Shown piece after piece: positions 346 through 52,797 of a DNA stretch of 56,043 bases. The position numbers and the translations under genes are program-made. Each line of letters begins with the position of its first letter. Position 1 is the stretch's first letter. This stretch comes from a virus, in the IMG/VR virus record IMGVR_UViG_3300043395_001804, positions 1 to 56,043 of that record. The stretch is one strand, 5' to 3'. A model generated the notes under the pieces. It searched no databases. It was given only the letters and a program-made list of their open reading frames with translations, and was not told where the DNA came from.

Positions 346-690
346 TTACAGTTTTACTGATGGGTCGGAAATTGGGACAATCTCAATCAGTAGTGTAAAC
401 GCCATGCTTTCTTTTGCAACCTTAGTAATTGAAAAAGTGAATCCTTCGATGTTACGTAGTCGCTGAAGTTCAGCAATTACTGTATCGATTGATTCTGGCT
501 TGGTATCGTATGGTTGATCGATAATCTGATTGTCGTTGCTTGCTAAGCTTAGTAGCTTATCGATCTGACCAATGATGCCAAGCTTAACTCCTTCACTTAG
601 CAGTTTGCTTTCCTTTAGCTGAACTTCGCTTATTGTTATTCCCACTCTTGGGTCTTCGATTTTCTCCAGCTTGGTTATTAGTCTTAACAC
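346..690 (-). CDS. hypothetical protein, 114 aa
   Basis: Not recognised. Starts with GTG at 690, preceded by GGAG at a good distance (GGAGACTACTCGTG). The reading frame overlaps the 3' end of the primase-helicase gene by about 98 nt, which is long for this genome. The protein is mixed alpha/beta in character without Cys clusters or membrane segments (LKESKLLSEGVKLGIIGQID, then an Ile-rich C-terminus). Its stop is directly followed by the ATG of the ParB-like gene, so it is translated within the replication operon. A later start would shorten the overlap. Confidence 0.6.
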   Translation of the reverse strand: MLRLITKLEKIEDPRVGITISEVQLKESKLLSEGVKLGIIGQIDKLLSLASNDNQIIDQPYDTKPESIDTVIAELQRLRNIEGFTFSITKVAKESMAFTLLIEIVPISDPSVKL

Positions 691-2785
691 GAGTAGTCTC
701 CAAACATGCTATGAGGTCTTCACAAAGGGAATAAGTGTAAGTGTCTCGGCCTCGATTGCCGGACTTGTTGTTCTCTTTATCGTGGATGACGATATCGAGT
801 TGTTCTAGGTCAGTGAGGATTTGATGTACGCGAGTACTTGGAATCTTCAACGTATCGATGATGGACTTGCGAGTAACATTCTTGTGTTTATGGATGAAGT
901 TAATTACTTCGTAGTTGAGTCCTGGGCAAGAGTCGAAACCAATCTTACGAATGATAGCGTATGTTGCTTCGGATACAACCTTCTCGCCTCTAACGTGAGC
1001 TAGGGCATGGGCTAGGTTTTTGAACTGGAGAGATAGACGGGTAGCGACTGCGGCTCTTGGTCGGTAGATCATACCTTCGTTTCGGTCTTTCACTACTTCA
1101 GCTTGCAGTCTTGCGGCTACCTTAGCCAATGCCATGATCTTGTTACGGATTGGTATTGGTACTTCGGCTACGTTCTCTGGATTGAAAGTTTCGAACAAGT
1201 GTTTGTAGTATCCAAGCATTGTGTCGGATAGCTTCTTCTTGTTCTCTTTCTTCTGTCCCATGTTCTCCCATGCTTGGCTCATGTGTTCATCTTCATCGAA
1301 GTCGTTTCCTAAGAAGTCGATTCGCAAGAATCGCTCTCCCTTGGAAGCGTCATTGTGCTTGTAGATGATTGGTGTAACACCGGCGATGATGTTGAACTTG
1401 AAGTCAGTGGCTTCGTAGGACTTGCCGTTACCCCAAGTAATCTTTACGTAACCATCGTAGGCATCACGTAGTAAGTCCCATAGTTGTTGCTGTACTCCGT
1501 CTGGCATACCAAGTAGTACGGTCATATCTTTGATGAACAAAGTTTTCTCATTCATCTTATGAAGGGTCGATGCGTCTGAACCATCTGTGTTTCTCCATCC
1601 TGATACAAGCGATGTTGCAGTCAGCTTGGATACGTAATCGAAGTACTTGTTGTTACCACCGAATGCTTCGATTACTGTTGACTTACCGCATGATGCAGGG
1701 CCGACAACGAATAACCAAAGTGGTTCGCCTGGAAGACGTACTGAAAGTGATGTAGCAAGCATAGCATCGATTGTTTGTAGAATCGATCTGCTTGTGTATA
1801 AGCTTTCCTTGATACGTTTCTGGAAGGTAGAATAAGAAGTAACTGGTTCAATCGATTCAATGTCTGCATTGAACGTCTTCTTGACTTCGCTACCTTCTTC
1901 TTGTTCTAGTTCTTCTGTGTAGTCTTCTTCAGTTGTAGCTGCCATATCAAGAAGAACTGGTAGAACTTCTGTCTTGGTCTTAGCGTTAGTCCATACGTCC
2001 CTAACGTCTTTGAGTTCTACGTTTTTCTTGACTAGCTTTAGCTTTGATAGGGCTGATGATCCCCAATTAGCTATGCTGTATCTGAGTCCGATGCTACGTT
2101 TGCGTAGCACTTCGATACCTTGATCGCCACCTTGATCTTTGTCAAAGAAGAAGGTTAGATACTTGCCTTTGAATGATTTGTTCCAGGACTCTTTCCAGCA
2201 TGTTGCACCTGGAAGTCCAAGTATGGTAGGTGCTTCTTTACGCATTGCTCTAAAAGCTGCGTAAAGAGCAAGTGCGTCCCATTCTCCTTCTGTGACAAGG
2301 ATTTCGGGGTCGTACTGCTTCGTGTTGAATACCTTATAAAGCTGTAGATCAAAGCCTGGGGCTTTGAAGATTCTAAATCGATTCTTTGGGTTGAAGTTGT
2401 TAGGATCGAATGCACCCAAGTTAAGCAATTGGTTAGATCCGTAGTAGGGAACGTACCATCTTCCCGTATTTGGATTTCGATGCCAATTAGCAAGTTCAAA
2501 TACCTCACTTGGGATTCCTCTTTCCGTTTCAAGAAATTTGTAATCTTCTGGAGTAGTGAGAACTTTGAGGGCTTCGTGAAACTGCGTAATAAAAGTGTAA
2601 TAGTTACCCGACCTACTACATTTCTTACAGTTATATAGTCCACTTGTGTTATGGAAGTAGAAGTGATTAGCTTTTCCGCAATTTGCGAATGGGCAGTTGG
2701 CAACATGATTATCCTTTACTTGTTTCGTAGCTTCGACACCAAAGAATTTGTAAAAAGCAACTGGGTCTTGTTGTGCGTTAGGCAT
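593..2785 (-). CDS. primase-helicase: zinc finger, Toprim, AAA+ ATPase, winged helix
   Basis: 730 aa. An N-terminal CHC2-like zinc ribbon (CPFANCGKANHF ... YNCKKCSRSGNY, residues ~31-62) is followed by a Toprim domain (ILVTEGEWDALALY ~162; FFFDKDQGG ~212) and a central ATPase with Walker A GPASCGKST (~365) and a later GLLxD-type region (LWDLLRDAYDG). The C-terminus has a helix-turn-helix pattern (TRKSIIDTLKIPSTRVHQILTDL). This combination primes and unwinds DNA at the phage fork and fits its place next to the family A polymerase. The ATPase looks more like a P4/MCM-type or AAA+ helicase than DnaB, but this is a reading by eye. The last ~40 residues are Lys/Asn-rich and overlap the next gene. 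Confidence 0.85.
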   Translation of the reverse strand: MPNAQQDPVAFYKFFGVEATKQVKDNHVANCPFANCGKANHFYFHNTSGLYNCKKCSRSGNYYTFITQFHEALKVLTTPEDYKFLETERGIPSEVFELANWHRNPNTGRWYVPYYGSNQLLNLGAFDPNNFNPKNRFRIFKAPGFDLQLYKVFNTKQYDPEILVTEGEWDALALYAAFRAMRKEAPTILGLPGATCWKESWNKSFKGKYLTFFFDKDQGGDQGIEVLRKRSIGLRYSIANWGSSALSKLKLVKKNVELKDVRDVWTNAKTKTEVLPVLLDMAATTEEDYTEELEQEEGSEVKKTFNADIESIEPVTSYSTFQKRIKESLYTSRSILQTIDAMLATSLSVRLPGEPLWLFVVGPASCGKSTVIEAFGGNNKYFDYVSKLTATSLVSGWRNTDGSDASTLHKMNEKTLFIKDMTVLLGMPDGVQQQLWDLLRDAYDGYVKITWGNGKSYEATDFKFNIIAGVTPIIYKHNDASKGERFLRIDFLGNDFDEDEHMSQAWENMGQKKENKKKLSDTMLGYYKHLFETFNPENVAEVPIPIRNKIMALAKVAARLQAEVVKDRNEGMIYRPRAAVATRLSLQFKNLAHALAHVRGEKVVSEATYAIIRKIGFDSCPGLNYEVINFIHKHKNVTRKSIIDTLKIPSTRVHQILTDLEQLDIVIHDKENNKSGNRGRDTYTYSLCEDLIACLETTRVKTNNQAGENRRPKSGNNNKRSSAKGKQTAK

Positions 2786-3092
2786 TGGTTTTCCTTCGTA
2801 GGTTTTCTGGAATTGTTTGAAGTGCTGTTTTAACTAAATCTTCAGCAATGACAAACAGTTCATCATCGCTTATTTTGTCTATACCAATAGACTCAAAAGT
2901 TATTGGTATGTTATAGACAAATTTCTTGTGGTTTGTTTTACGTACTGTCCAACGTATATTAAACTTAGTACGTTCAATAGACGCAGTAATACAGCCAAAG
3001 TTTAGCTCTCTATGTACAACTCTTAGTACTATAGAGAATCGTAAAAACACTTTATCATAGTACTCTTTTGAAAGAGCTACTTTATTAAGCAT
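2778..3092 (-). CDS. hypothetical protein, 104 aa
   Basis: Not recognised. I place the start at the ATG at 3092 (MLNKVALSKEYYD), which overlaps the polymerase stop as TAATG, a typical translational-coupling junction. The frame extends further upstream into the polymerase gene but that part is probably not used. The protein has no Cys pairs or membrane segments; the C-terminus (DDELFVIAEDLVKTALQ) is predicted helical. It also overlaps the primase start by 8 nt, so the three genes are co-translated. Confidence 0.65.
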   Translation of the reverse strand: MLNKVALSKEYYDKVFLRFSIVLRVVHRELNFGCITASIERTKFNIRWTVRKTNHKKFVYNIPITFESIGIDKISDDELFVIAEDLVKTALQTIPENLRRKTNA

Positions 3093-15888: not shown

Positions 15889-16140
15889 CTATTTGTTCCT
15901 ACTGTTATCGATTGTTTCTTGCATCATCCATCTATCTTGAATCCGTAACGCTGCTTTGTGGTCTTCGAAGGCTGTGTAGTGGATTGCGTAAATGTTAGAA
16001 GCACTGATTACTTCTAACTCTTGTAATCGTTCCCTAGCCTGAAGCATCGGCATCACAAGACTGAGAAGCCTTAGTTGTCTTGCTCCCCATCCTGCGGGGA
16101 GTCCATAGAATCTGACGGACTCAGCGATGGGTAAGACTTT
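15889..16140 (-). CDS. -1 frame extension of the 16071-16403 gene
   Basis: From the A-rich slip site the -1 frame is open for 83 codons, starting KVLPIAESVRFYGLPAGWG and ending in ERLQELEVISASNIYAIHYT and DRWMMQETIDNSRNK. The last part could be read alone from ATG 16053 (54 aa), but it has no clear ribosome-binding site. An -1 event at 16137-16145 would give a 171-residue fusion. The two-frame pattern is that of tail assembly chaperone pairs (gpG/gpGT of lambda). The stop is 2 nt before the portal ATG. Confidence 0.6.
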   Translation of the reverse strand, partial: KVLPIAESVRFYGLPAGWGARQLRLLSLVMPMLQARERLQELEVISASNIYAIHYTAFEDHKAALRIQDRWMMQETIDNSRNK

Positions 16141-16403
16141 TTTTTGATGTCTACCAACATATCGTTGGCTTGAGCATAGAGAGCTAGAGCAACGGATTTG
16201 TGCTTGATGCCGAATCCGTACTTAGACTCTAGCTTGTCTACAACTAAGTCCCAGAAGTCGTCTAAGCCAAGCTTCTCGGATTCGTTGATTGCGTTTTGAC
16301 GAATGAGTACAACGTCAAGACAATCAACCTTGCCAAGAACTTTGTCACCGTCCTTGACTACGATTTCGCATTCTTCATCTGTTGGTAATTGGAATTCTGC
16401 CAT
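16071..16403 (-). CDS. putative tail assembly chaperone, short form
   Basis: 110 aa, acidic, helical (LGLDDFWDLVVDKLESKYGF, VALALYAQANDMLVDIKKK). It follows a large tail protein and carries a slippery A-tract near its end. Short products with a -1 extended partner are typical of tail assembly chaperones that bind the tape-measure protein. The family cannot be named with certainty and the gene is not between tail tube and tape measure as usual, so the role is inferred from the frameshift. Confidence 0.55.
   Translation of the reverse strand: MAEFQLPTDEECEIVVKDGDKVLGKVDCLDVVLIRQNAINESEKLGLDDFWDLVVDKLESKYGFGIKHKSVALALYAQANDMLVDIKKKSYPSLSPSDSMDSPQDGEQDN
16137..16145 (-). promoter_or_regulatory. 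-1 ribosomal frameshift site (A8G)
   Basis: On the minus strand eight A followed by G, read in frame as AAA AAA AAG, is a strong -1 slippery sequence. A 6-bp hairpin CTCCCC/GGGGAG (16083-16101) lies downstream at ~35 nt. Confidence 0.6.
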
Positions 16404-16436
16404 CGCTAAACCTTTTTCTGGAAAGAGGAAAAGAAA

Positions 16437-35047: not shown

Positions 35048-36511
35048 CTAGAGAAAGAAACCGGAATCGTTGAAAGACTTTGGATAGCCAAGGTTCATCT
35101 GTAGCAGTTGAGGTACGTAGGCATTTAGTGAGTCTGCCGATACGGAATTCGCCTGAAACATAGGATCGTAACCTTGACCTTCCCAGGTAACATCATTGCA
35201 AGCATCGGAAAGTGTGTCAACAATATCATCTGTCATACCTGGATGTCCAGTCCAGGTAAATACTTCGTCCATGCACTCTTTGAGCCATGCTGCTTCTTCA
35301 GGTAAGTAAATGCGATTGTTACGCATTCGAAGTTGAGCATTCAAAGAATTTTGGATTTTATCTTTAGCTTTCGGGTTGGGTACTACGTTAAGACCGTAGT
35401 TAGCTGCTAACTGGGCAGGGCCGATACCTAGACCGTTAGTCTCCATTTTGACGTATTGAGGTTTCCATACTTTATAGATATCGCATAGAACCTTAACGCA
35501 TTCTGGAATTTCAGCACGCATACGCTTCATGTAGAGCCATAGTAGCTTGTAGTCATGAGTAAGACCCCAAACAGAATAGACTGTATGGGACATACCGTTA
35601 CGTGTTGTAGACTGATCGATGATGCCTTCTTTGACTGTTGCAGCAGAGTCAGCAGTCATGAAGACTTTCTTCAAGTCTTTGTAGTGAATACCTATTTCGT
35701 TGATAACGAAGTACTCGCCTTTGGATTTATAGAATCTAACGTCTTGGACTCTGAAGCGTGAATCAGGAGAAGCGTCCCAATCGCCATGCTCTAATTGAAG
35801 CTTACGTACTTCATCTAGTTCTTGGAGAGATTGACGATACGATCTTTGATCGATGTATTCGTTATCTCGTAAAGAAGACGGTACGAATGGTTTGTTAGGA
35901 TTACGACCTACCCAACGAATACGCTTAGAAACAGCCTTAGTTTCGTGGTCTACTACATCGTAAAGTTCTTTCTCAATTTGGTATCTATTCTTTATCCAGA
36001 GGTGTCCTGGGCCGCCTGGGTTACACGACATTCGAAAGCGAATAGGAATAGACTTATACATTTGACAGATGCTACAGTTATCCATGTAGTTTGGAACCAT
36101 TTCACCGCTTTTAGGATCTTTCTTTAGCTTGTGCTTTGGACAGACCTTTTTACGAAGACGGGAAAAGAGATATCTAGGAGCTTGGTCGTTTTCAAAGTGT
36201 CCAGCTTCGTCGATTGCAGCAAATTGGAATTCTGCCCCTTGGTAGCGTTCTTCAACTCGGTAATCACCAAGATAGCCGAACTGAAGCTTCGCGTAAGGGC
36301 CAGGAGTTCCATCAGGCCAAGTCGTATCGAAGTAGTACGTATGTTCGTCTGGTGAGTAATGGGCGGTTTTAACGCCACGTAGCCACTGAGAAGCACGATC
36401 CAATAGAGCTTCGTTCTGCTTCAACTCTACGAGAGTTCGACGAAGGATTAGAGCAGAGTACCCAGGGGTATCTGCAAACTGCAATGCTGCCATTAGGAGA
36501 ACGTCTGATTT
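35048..36511 (-). CDS. terL: large terminase subunit, 3' segment (from Walker A Lys)
   Basis: 487 codons reading KSDVLLMAALQFADTPGYSA then ILRRTLVELKQNE. Walker B is FQFAAIDEAGHFE, the coupling motif is RMSCNPGGPGHLW, and the nuclease domain starts at VFMTADSAATV with a later acidic site DDIVDTLSDACND. It drives DNA packaging with the portal. The segment lacks its own P-loop glycines: those are in the 36579-36692 segment in another frame, 67 nt upstream. The first in-frame ATG (36493) follows the catalytic Lys and has no good ribosome-binding site, so independent translation would give an inactive ATPase. Confidence 0.92.
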   Translation of the reverse strand, partial: KSDVLLMAALQFADTPGYSALILRRTLVELKQNEALLDRASQWLRGVKTAHYSPDEHTYYFDTTWPDGTPGPYAKLQFGYLGDYRVEERYQGAEFQFAAIDEAGHFENDQAPRYLFSRLRKKVCPKHKLKKDPKSGEMVPNYMDNCSICQMYKSIPIRFRMSCNPGGPGHLWIKNRYQIEKELYDVVDHETKAVSKRIRWVGRNPNKPFVPSSLRDNEYIDQRSYRQSLQELDEVRKLQLEHGDWDASPDSRFRVQDVRFYKSKGEYFVINEIGIHYKDLKKVFMTADSAATVKEGIIDQSTTRNGMSHTVYSVWGLTHDYKLLWLYMKRMRAEIPECVKVLCDIYKVWKPQYVKMETNGLGIGPAQLAANYGLNVVPNPKAKDKIQNSLNAQLRMRNNRIYLPEEAAWLKECMDEVFTWTGHPGMTDDIVDTLSDACNDVTWEGQGYDPMFQANSVSADSLNAYVPQLLQMNLGYPKSFNDSGFFL

Positions 36512-36578
36512 GCCTTTTGCCCCCTACAACCCAACCCTCTTTCTGGAAGAGAGAAGAGAAAACGTAGGGGGCTTAAAC
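36512..36578 (-). other. 67-nt insert in the Walker A codons of terL (bypass or micro-intron-like)
   Basis: Lies between GGC (36579-36581, last Gly of GGAAGGG) and AAA TCA (KS). Reading minus strand: GTT TAA, then stem arm GCCCCCTAC (36564-36572), a 36-nt loop with a pyrimidine tract and CCAGA, the perfectly complementary arm GTAGGGGGC (36519-36527), AAAA, and a second GGC (36512-36514). Skipping from the first to the second GGC restores exactly the consensus GGAAGGGKSD. The length (67) is not a multiple of 3. Matched take-off and landing codons, an early stop and a hairpin are the hallmarks of T4 gene 60 bypassing; an excised RNA is the alternative. Confidence 0.8.
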
Positions 36579-36692
36579 GCCTCCCCCTGCTGCCCCGCCA
36601 AACAATGCGTCTAGGTGGGGAAGCAGGAGGAACTGTAACTGAGTGGCGAATGGCTTGTGCGGAATATACTGGGAGCACCAGGGGATACGCAT
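36579..36692 (-). CDS. terL: large terminase subunit, 5' segment (to Walker A Gly)
   Basis: 38 codons: MRIPWCSQYIPHKPFATQ then LQFLLLPHLDALFGGAAGGG. ATG 36692 is preceded by AGAGGT at 4 nt. Terminase large subunits of this type begin with YIPH-P--KQ--FL, then a hydrophobic helix and (Y/F)GGAAGGGKSDALLMAALQ, so this is clearly the true N-terminus. In its own frame it ends two codons later at GTT TAA. The protein becomes complete (525 aa) only if the 67-nt insert is skipped. Confidence 0.9.
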
Positions 36693-36701
36693 GAATACCT
36701 C

Positions 36702-52718: not shown

Positions 52719-52723
52719 CTTAG

Positions 52724-52797
52724 CTTGCCTGACCGGAGTTGAACCGGCAACTACACTTTAGAAGGGTGTTGCTTTTCCTGGATTAAGCTACAGGCAA
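52724..52797 (-). tRNA. tRNA-Arg (TCT)
   Basis: 74 nt. Acceptor TTGCCTG/CAGGCAA, D arm GCTT/AAGC, anticodon arm ACACC-CTTCTAA-AGTGT (U33, anticodon TCT at 52760-52762), T arm GCCGG-TTCAACT-CCGGT, discriminator G, no encoded CCA. The lowest anticodon-stem pair is a C-A mismatch. Decodes AGA (and AGG), codons that the phage uses. Confidence 0.8.

Follow-up and report, generated by a model that had tools for sequence, protein, structure and literature searches.

A hairpin-filled gap in the Walker A codons of a phage large terminase gene, and recurrent breaks at the same site, suggest programmed ribosome bypassing

Results and Discussion

The gene for the large terminase subunit (terL) is interrupted within the codons for its Walker A motif in a viral genome sequence of 56,043 nucleotides (nt), IMG/VR record IMGVR_UViG_3300043395_001804. 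This whole stretch is called the window here; coordinates refer to it, and terL is read on its minus strand. The interruption is a 64-nt gap, largely occupied by a hairpin, that lies between two identical glycine codons and contains an in-frame stop codon close to its start. Its conservation in five close relatives, and the recurrence of Gly-flanked, stop-containing breaks at the same motif in many other terL genes, make it probable that full-length TerL is produced by programmed ribosome bypassing.

Anatomy of the interrupted gene

The first part of terL (36579..36692, minus strand) comprises 38 codons, from an ATG at 36690-36692 through MRIPWCSQYIPHKPF to a C-terminal ...LFGGAAGGG, and its frame is kept in all five relatives. 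The last codon, GGC (36579-36581), encodes the third Gly of GGAAGGG and is the putative take-off codon; it is followed by GTT (36576-36578) and by the stop codon TAA (36573-36575). Coding resumes in a different frame at AAA (36509-36511), which opens the sequence KSDVLLMAALQ, and the second part then runs for 487 amino acids (aa) to its stop (35048..36511). Directly before this AAA stands a second GGC (36512-36514), the putative landing codon. The first-pass annotation of this DNA had located the split precisely here, and its positions are correct to the base; the 67-nt length that it gave for the element holds when the landing GGC is counted, the gap between the two codons (36515..36578), predicted to be missing from the product, being 64 nt. 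The window copy of the gap has stops in the zero and +1 frames, and its third frame is open.

The stem of the hairpin, with arms GCCCCCTAC and GTAGGGGGC, had been described as 9 base pairs (bp) followed by an AAAA spacer. Both features are present as described, and the stem grows to 10 bp when one G-U pair is included; the 36-nt loop may fold further. In this longer form the 5' arm, GCCCCCTACG, occupies 36563..36572 and the 3' arm 36519..36528, so that the stem begins 6 nt past the take-off codon and ends 4 nt short of the landing codon, from which it is separated by the AAAA spacer (36515..36518). The 3' arm contains AGGGGG, a Shine-Dalgarno (SD)-like sequence that ends 5 nt before the landing codon. 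A second G-rich, SD-like stretch, GCA GGG GGA (36582..36590), lies directly 5' of the take-off codon, and is assigned from its sequence and from the enrichment of GGG in interrupted genes described below.

Profile matches indicate that the two parts belong to one protein. The second part, taken from the ATG at 36493 alone, matches the PHROG family phrog_979 (terminase large subunit) with 127.7 bits, and joining both parts at GGC|AAA gives a single phrog_979 match of 166.5 bits that spans the junction (profile positions 148-600). This joined match and the contiguous homologues described below give the arrangement of two open reading frames (ORFs) for one protein that characterises bypassing of the T4 gene 60 type. 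Pfam and NCBIfam were of no help in placing the TerL protein.

Conservation in close relatives

A scan of IMG/VR with the second part of terL returned eight loci, of which five were close, and a scan with the insert pattern led to the same five contigs (G001-G005). TerL downstream of the gap is intact in all five and is 81-92% identical to that of the window. An alignment of terL with relatives had been proposed as a check on the insert; far from being always absent, it is present at the identical codon in each of the five, diverged in sequence and length. The shift, including the landing codon, is 67 nt in the window and 64, 64, 64, 67 and 61 nt in G001-G005 respectively, which corresponds to gaps of 58-64 nt across the six copies. 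The take-off codon is GGC in all six; the landing codon is GGC in two and GGT in four, and a single tRNA-Gly decodes both. GTT follows the take-off codon in every copy and a stop follows GTT (TAA in three, TAG in three). The spacer is AANN throughout, and IPWCSQYIPHKPF is invariant across the six copies.

The stem is conserved as a structure. When its ten pairs are examined in the six copies, 60 of the 60 cells are paired, compared with 29-33 when one arm is slid, and two of the pairs have changed on both sides among the copies. Folding energy is a weaker guide: that of 36505-36600 taken by itself is modestly unusual (z -1.8, with 10 of 200 shuffles equally good), and on its own counts against the hairpin being beyond chance. 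Retention in all five relatives and complete pairing of the stem nevertheless confirm that the insert exceeds chance.

The codons that follow the gap bear the marks of translation. In the 18 nt from the landing codon to the first ATG, which encode KSDVLL, there are nine nucleotide changes among the six copies, all of them synonymous; the probability that KSDVLL would survive six random changes, as many as are found in the most diverged copy, is about 9e-5. A TAG four codons before the landing codon closes the resumed frame in the window and G004, and two TAG codons at this same position do so in G005, with no start codon intervening. Because of these stops, KSD can be made in these three copies neither by a usual internal start nor by straight read-through. 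The comparative evidence thus supports the earlier statement that the insert, flanked by matched Gly codons, must be skipped or removed, and favours ribosome bypassing as the means.

The farther comparison set consisted of 44 loci (32 viral, 12 genome contigs), the five contigs of the window clade being set aside. Walker A is contiguous in 39 of the 44 and broken in none; the other five could not be judged, three because the contigs start within the gene and two (L079 and L080) because the motif could not be located. The nearest insert-free relative found, L050, is 57% identical over its best segment and encodes an uninterrupted Walker A motif (GGT GGT GCT GCT GGA GGA GGT AAG TCT). As a separate observation, the hairpin-free relatives L050 (positions 2101-3000), L054 and L055 carry large in-frame insertions that end in ...NC just before the TerL Walker B region and look like inteins.

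A wider class of interrupted terL genes

IMG/VR was scanned for sequences coding for [FY]GGAAGGG followed by TRR (a stop or Trp codon). Of the 58 stretches from this first scan, 53 pick up again at K[ST], no more than 95 nt on, in a frame that is 100 aa or longer. With TRR placed one codon later, 35 stretches were found and ten resume likewise: four relatives of the window, L143, L268 and four genes already in the first scan. The fifth relative, L026 in these scans, was missed only because its locus ends too soon. With TRR one codon earlier, a scan intended as a control, 19 of 53 stretches resume, together with L308 and L335, which have 57 and 92 aa left. The three scans also gave 5, 24 and 32 other stretches respectively, which were excluded before counting; among them is L231, terminase-like with Asn replacing the Lys. 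From another listing, three of the 116 loci screened among the matches listed passed the filter, and L143, which failed it, was recognised later. FDELTHF, which lies elsewhere in TerL, served as a control motif; with TRR after it a single stretch was obtained, outside any terminase frame. FDELTHF is present in 15 of the 61 interrupted genes counted below.

A different recurrent gene was also noticed (L232, L257, L264-L266, L269-L275, L277-L281 and L283-L288). It ends in ...YGGAAGGG, with a stop after zero or one further codon; this is probably a natural C-terminus, and the gene is probably not a terminase.

After identical-flank copies had been dropped, 61 interrupted terL genes remained beyond the window, its five relatives included. 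In each a stop follows a Walker A Gly and coding resumes at the Lys 1-67 nt later, the gaps of the window clade being the longest. The break follows the third Gly in 49 genes and the second in 12 (L294, L297, L298, L300, L301, L303, L305, L306, L309, L318, L322 and L326). Single-linkage clustering at 90, 70 and 50% identity reduces the 61 to 56, 46 and 23 clusters. Among the 56 downstream parts that are closed by a stop, the length is 385-495 aa in 54 and shorter in two (130 and 296 aa).

The codon relationship seen in the window extends to this class. With C and T treated as equal at the third position, the triplet before Lys (before Gly-Lys in the second-Gly group) agrees with the take-off codon at no fewer than two positions in all 61 genes, and at all three in 31. 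The landing codon is Gly in all 12 second-Gly cases. Six of the 49 third-Gly cases are one-base slips (GGN T AAR), in which the triplets overlap. Variation within a single 50% cluster of 11 genes is informative, their inserts being TAGT, TAGC, TGAGC, TGAGT, TAGGT (twice), TGAC (twice), TAGCGA, TGAGGT and TGATCGGCGGG. Gap lengths thus fall in all frames within one cluster while a take-off-like codon is kept, which is what hopping predicts, since for hopping only the landing codon matters.

Two members outside the window clade, L143 (41 nt) and L268 (42 nt), also have long inserts, each with a stable hairpin in the corresponding position (z -3.25 and -3.11). The TRR of L268 is TGG, and its stop, TAA, is the seventh codon. 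L143 reads GGT GCTTAG CCCC where G001 reads GGC GTTTAG CCCC, and their TerL proteins are far apart in the tree described below; the likeness may reflect convergence or transfer.

Synonymous sites upstream of the break point to a further signal. GGG encodes the first of the three Gly residues in 30 of the 49 third-Gly cases, compared with three of 31 contiguous genes (a Fisher test that ignores relatedness gives P 5e-6), and at a 60% identity threshold most members use GGG in 17 of 28 clusters. The remaining Gly codons that precede take-off in these genes are less often GGG (3, 10 and 2 of 49). A TerL tree of 100 sequences, 60 of them interrupted (the window and 59 of the 61; L251 and L322 were omitted as short) and 40 contiguous, requires at least 11 changes between the two states, nine of which are forced by well-supported branches. 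Because the sample was picked for interrupted genes the tree shows recurrence and not frequency, and the row for L050 is distorted by its insertion.

These findings alter the setting of the insert. The first-pass annotation had taken it for an isolated second programmed case in a phage structural gene. The terminase of Streptomyces phage Hau3 had already been proposed as such a case (PMC5009743) and has the same Gly-Lys break, as do dozens of other terL genes; moreover, terL is a packaging gene and not a virion structural gene. In searches of open-licence PMC papers none was recognised, from titles and the starts of abstracts, as a description of recoding that recurs at Walker A of TerL, and a term search of the PRFect paper (PMC10885494) gave no mention of terminase.

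A model for bypassing

In the mechanism that we favour, the ribosome would read 38 codons as far as GGC, at which point its P site would contain peptidyl-tRNA-Gly. Two elements, the G-rich, SD-like coding sequence for Walker A and the hairpin 6 nt downstream, would hold the ribosome at the take-off codon. Instead of termination at UAA the tRNA would release, the mRNA would slide past the folded gap, and the tRNA would re-pair with the second GGC (GGU in four relatives), aided by the AGGGGG of the hairpin 3' arm. The next codon read would be AAA (Lys), giving a product with exactly GGAAGGGKSD. That the ribosome, rather than an RNA-processing enzyme, removes the gap is what we infer, and the stimulators, efficiency and order of events given here have the same standing.

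Bypassing may throttle TerL synthesis. Alternatively, the insert may be a scar, rendered harmless by bypassing, that shields otherwise immutable P-loop DNA from the homing endonucleases of P-loop inteins. Mycobacteriophage TerL proteins carry P-loop inteins in Walker A, and a P-loop intein that was tested cut an intein-free allele (PMC5050341); the T4 gap has likewise been explained as a possible protection against a homing nuclease (PMC5009743). The homing target would be spoiled once a short insert separated the Gly and Lys codons, and hopping would make the insert harmless, a possible reason for the choice of site.

Taken together, the interrupted genes make the TerL Walker A motif look like a recurrent ribosome-hopping site. 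A broader proposal, which we regard as evenly balanced, is that the Walker A loop is a general hot spot for hopping, at which many separate lineages have a stop-containing spacer (one base to 64 nt) at the Gly-Lys junction. The spacer would be skipped by re-pairing of peptidyl-tRNA-Gly, the Gly codons serving both as slippery P-site codons and as an SD-like brake. Such spacers would either hold TerL at a low dose or be scars that confer immunity to intein homing endonucleases. The hairpin form, found not only in the window clade but also, separately, in L143 and L268, may represent a bypass cassette that can be transferred.

Knowledge of bypassing has so far come from gene 60, from yeast mitochondria and from a handful of candidates. 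If the proposal is true, nature supplies dozens of hop sites at a single essential pair of codons in the packaging-motor gene. Their gaps, stops and landing codons vary, so that evolution would reveal the rules of take-off and landing, which reporters could then test. Another consequence would be that annotations of terL, which serves as a standard phage marker, sometimes wrongly call the gene broken, and the class would offer a test of whether hop sites are an escape from homing endonucleases or a means of dose control.

Evidence against bypassing, and alternative explanations

Several observations weigh against this interpretation. Within the window clade the sense codon GTT separates take-off from stop, unlike in T4 gene 60 and the short cases, and the gap exceeds 56 nt, the length above which sliding on gene 60 loses processivity in vitro (PMC11194080). 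All six shifts are 1 mod 3 despite their differing lengths, which bypassing neither requires nor explains; chance may be responsible. In the wider class, 19 of the 49 third-Gly cases land on AGY, CGN or GAC, which mismatch the tRNA; some of these and some of the one-base slips could be frameshift or readthrough, and in the 19 the P-loop could be altered. The codon matches may not be fully independent, the landing glycines being partly the inherited Walker A codon. The scans cannot show that stops are favoured, since they required a stop (or TGG), and 31 contiguous genes and a single control motif are small samples. Among isolate phages, 11 of 11 records opened from the best 25-60 matches per tblastn search of 50,697 phage records are contiguous at Walker A, and phiHau3 is the only evidence for the break. 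Three short cases (L228, L240 and L301) have IMG numbers of a kind that we take to be given to isolate genomes.

Excision of the insert from RNA, as a tiny intron removed by an unknown or host enzyme and followed by translation of the joined message, would give the same protein, and a hairpin with the junctions near its base suits it. Archaeal bulge-helix-bulge splicing is one example of such removal. At 61-67 nt the insert is too short for a group I or II intron, however, and the window has no Rfam match to a known intron family at gathering scores, a tRNA being its sole match. A bulge-helix-bulge intron (a 4-bp helix between two 3-nt bulges) was sought by eye, no program being used; none is conserved in the six copies, and the bases next to the stem pair inconsistently. 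Excision would need neither the second Gly codon nor the stop and would leave the 1-12 nt versions in other phages unexplained, and we consider it improbable. A +1 frameshift at GGC GTT TA(A/G), with the insert translated and about 20 residues added to the P-loop, would account for the 1 mod 3 shifts. The +1 frame is open across the gap in G001, G002 and G003, where a frameshift could indeed read it, a further point against bypassing, and the upstream G-rich stretch resembles that of prfB. In the window, G004 and G005 the frame is closed by stops, and the product would break the Walker A motif; to this explanation we give still less credence.

Another possibility is that two proteins are made, a 39-residue peptide and a TerL that begins at the ATG at 36493 and works without, or shares, the Walker A lysine; in its favour, that ATG is present six codons past the landing site in all six copies. 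Met is often found there in contiguous relatives too, so that no start function is needed to explain it; KSDVLL, upstream of the ATG, changes only synonymously, and the essential Lys would stay untranslated. This arrangement is very unlikely. Least probable of all is an assembly error or a decaying pseudogene. The sequences are metagenome contigs and no cultured phage of the window clade was found, but the insert occurs in the window and in five contigs, each with its own IMG source number, where its sequence has diverged and its flanks are intact, and the three short cases mentioned above stand in records that are presumably isolates. Programmed bypassing remains the explanation that we prefer.

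Other features of the window

A loop motif, CTCTCCAGA, recurs in the window; the copies inspected outside terL are ordinary coding sequence or intergenic leaders, and were rejected as further bypass elements. The exact motif GGAGGCGTTTA has a single copy in each of the five relatives. No other window gene split by a comparable gap was apparent from tblastn of stop-to-stop ORFs against the five relatives and from a map of conserved ORFs. The window encodes no tRNA-Gly, only a tRNA-Arg (TCT; 52723-52797, minus strand), and G003 encodes one tRNA-Ser. A 25-33 nt, promoter-like repeat, TGCAATGYnGAATTTATTA, lies near gene starts on both strands (at 36693, 6115, 14585, 23618, 44723, 48121, 52565 and elsewhere). 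Conserved frames at 16074-16436 and 15892-16221 (minus strand), the second without an ATG until codon 57, overlap in what looks like a programmed frameshift of the tail-assembly-chaperone type. Another conserved frame, of 120 codons (349-708, minus strand), overlaps the end of the primase gene (596-2833, minus strand) and has its first ATG at codon 102, suggesting either a GTG start or a frameshift.

Comparison with known systems

The nearest precedent is Streptomyces phage Hau3: its terminase gene, in which a UUA codon follows KGWG, has been listed among the likely cases of bypassing (PMC5009743). The phiHau3 sequence (NC_018836.1) reads GGC TTACTCC GGT AAG GAC and resumes as KDPLLAVVCMVEF, with the break at the same Walker A Gly-Lys junction. 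It shares with the window the gene, the site, a GGC take-off codon and a Gly landing codon, deduced here to be the GGT before AAG. Its gap differs in being 7 nt long, opening with a UUA that is thought important and having no long hairpin, its Walker A motif is KGWGK, and its first in-frame stop, TAA, is four codons past take-off. Whereas phiHau3 is proposed to exploit UUA decoding in its host, the window clade has GTT, and no UUA, after take-off in all six copies.

T4 gene 60 has a similarly short first ORF (46 codons, compared with 38), matched Gly take-off and landing codons, a nearby stop, stem-loops, and an SD-like sequence 5' of the landing site (PMC5009743, PMC11194080). It is a topoisomerase gene with a gap of 50 nt rather than 64 nt, and its nascent-peptide signal, KKYK, is absent from the first part of terL. 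As described for gene 60, the stop immediately follows take-off; the same is true of the short-gap terL genes, which were selected for it, and in the window clade GTT intervenes in all six copies. A further difference is that in the window the hairpin fills the gap.

The byps of Magnusiomyces mitochondria are likewise inserted blocks in protein genes that ribosomes skip; they occupy 81 positions in one mitochondrial genome, apparently independently of context (PMC5009743), whereas the window type has one site per phage genome. Bacterial prfB, encoding release factor 2, resembles the window in its G-rich, SD-like stretch upstream of the P-site codon and the stop that follows (PMC5009743), and the GGGGG directly before the P-site codon of interrupted terL genes is comparable to this stimulator. 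The GGN T AAR subset is similar to prfB, from which the window differs in that prfB involves a shift of only one nucleotide and is autoregulatory. The P-loop inteins of mycobacteriophage TerL (PMC5050341) share the insertion in Walker A with the window, and differ from its insert in being whole, in-frame protein-splicing domains without stop codons.
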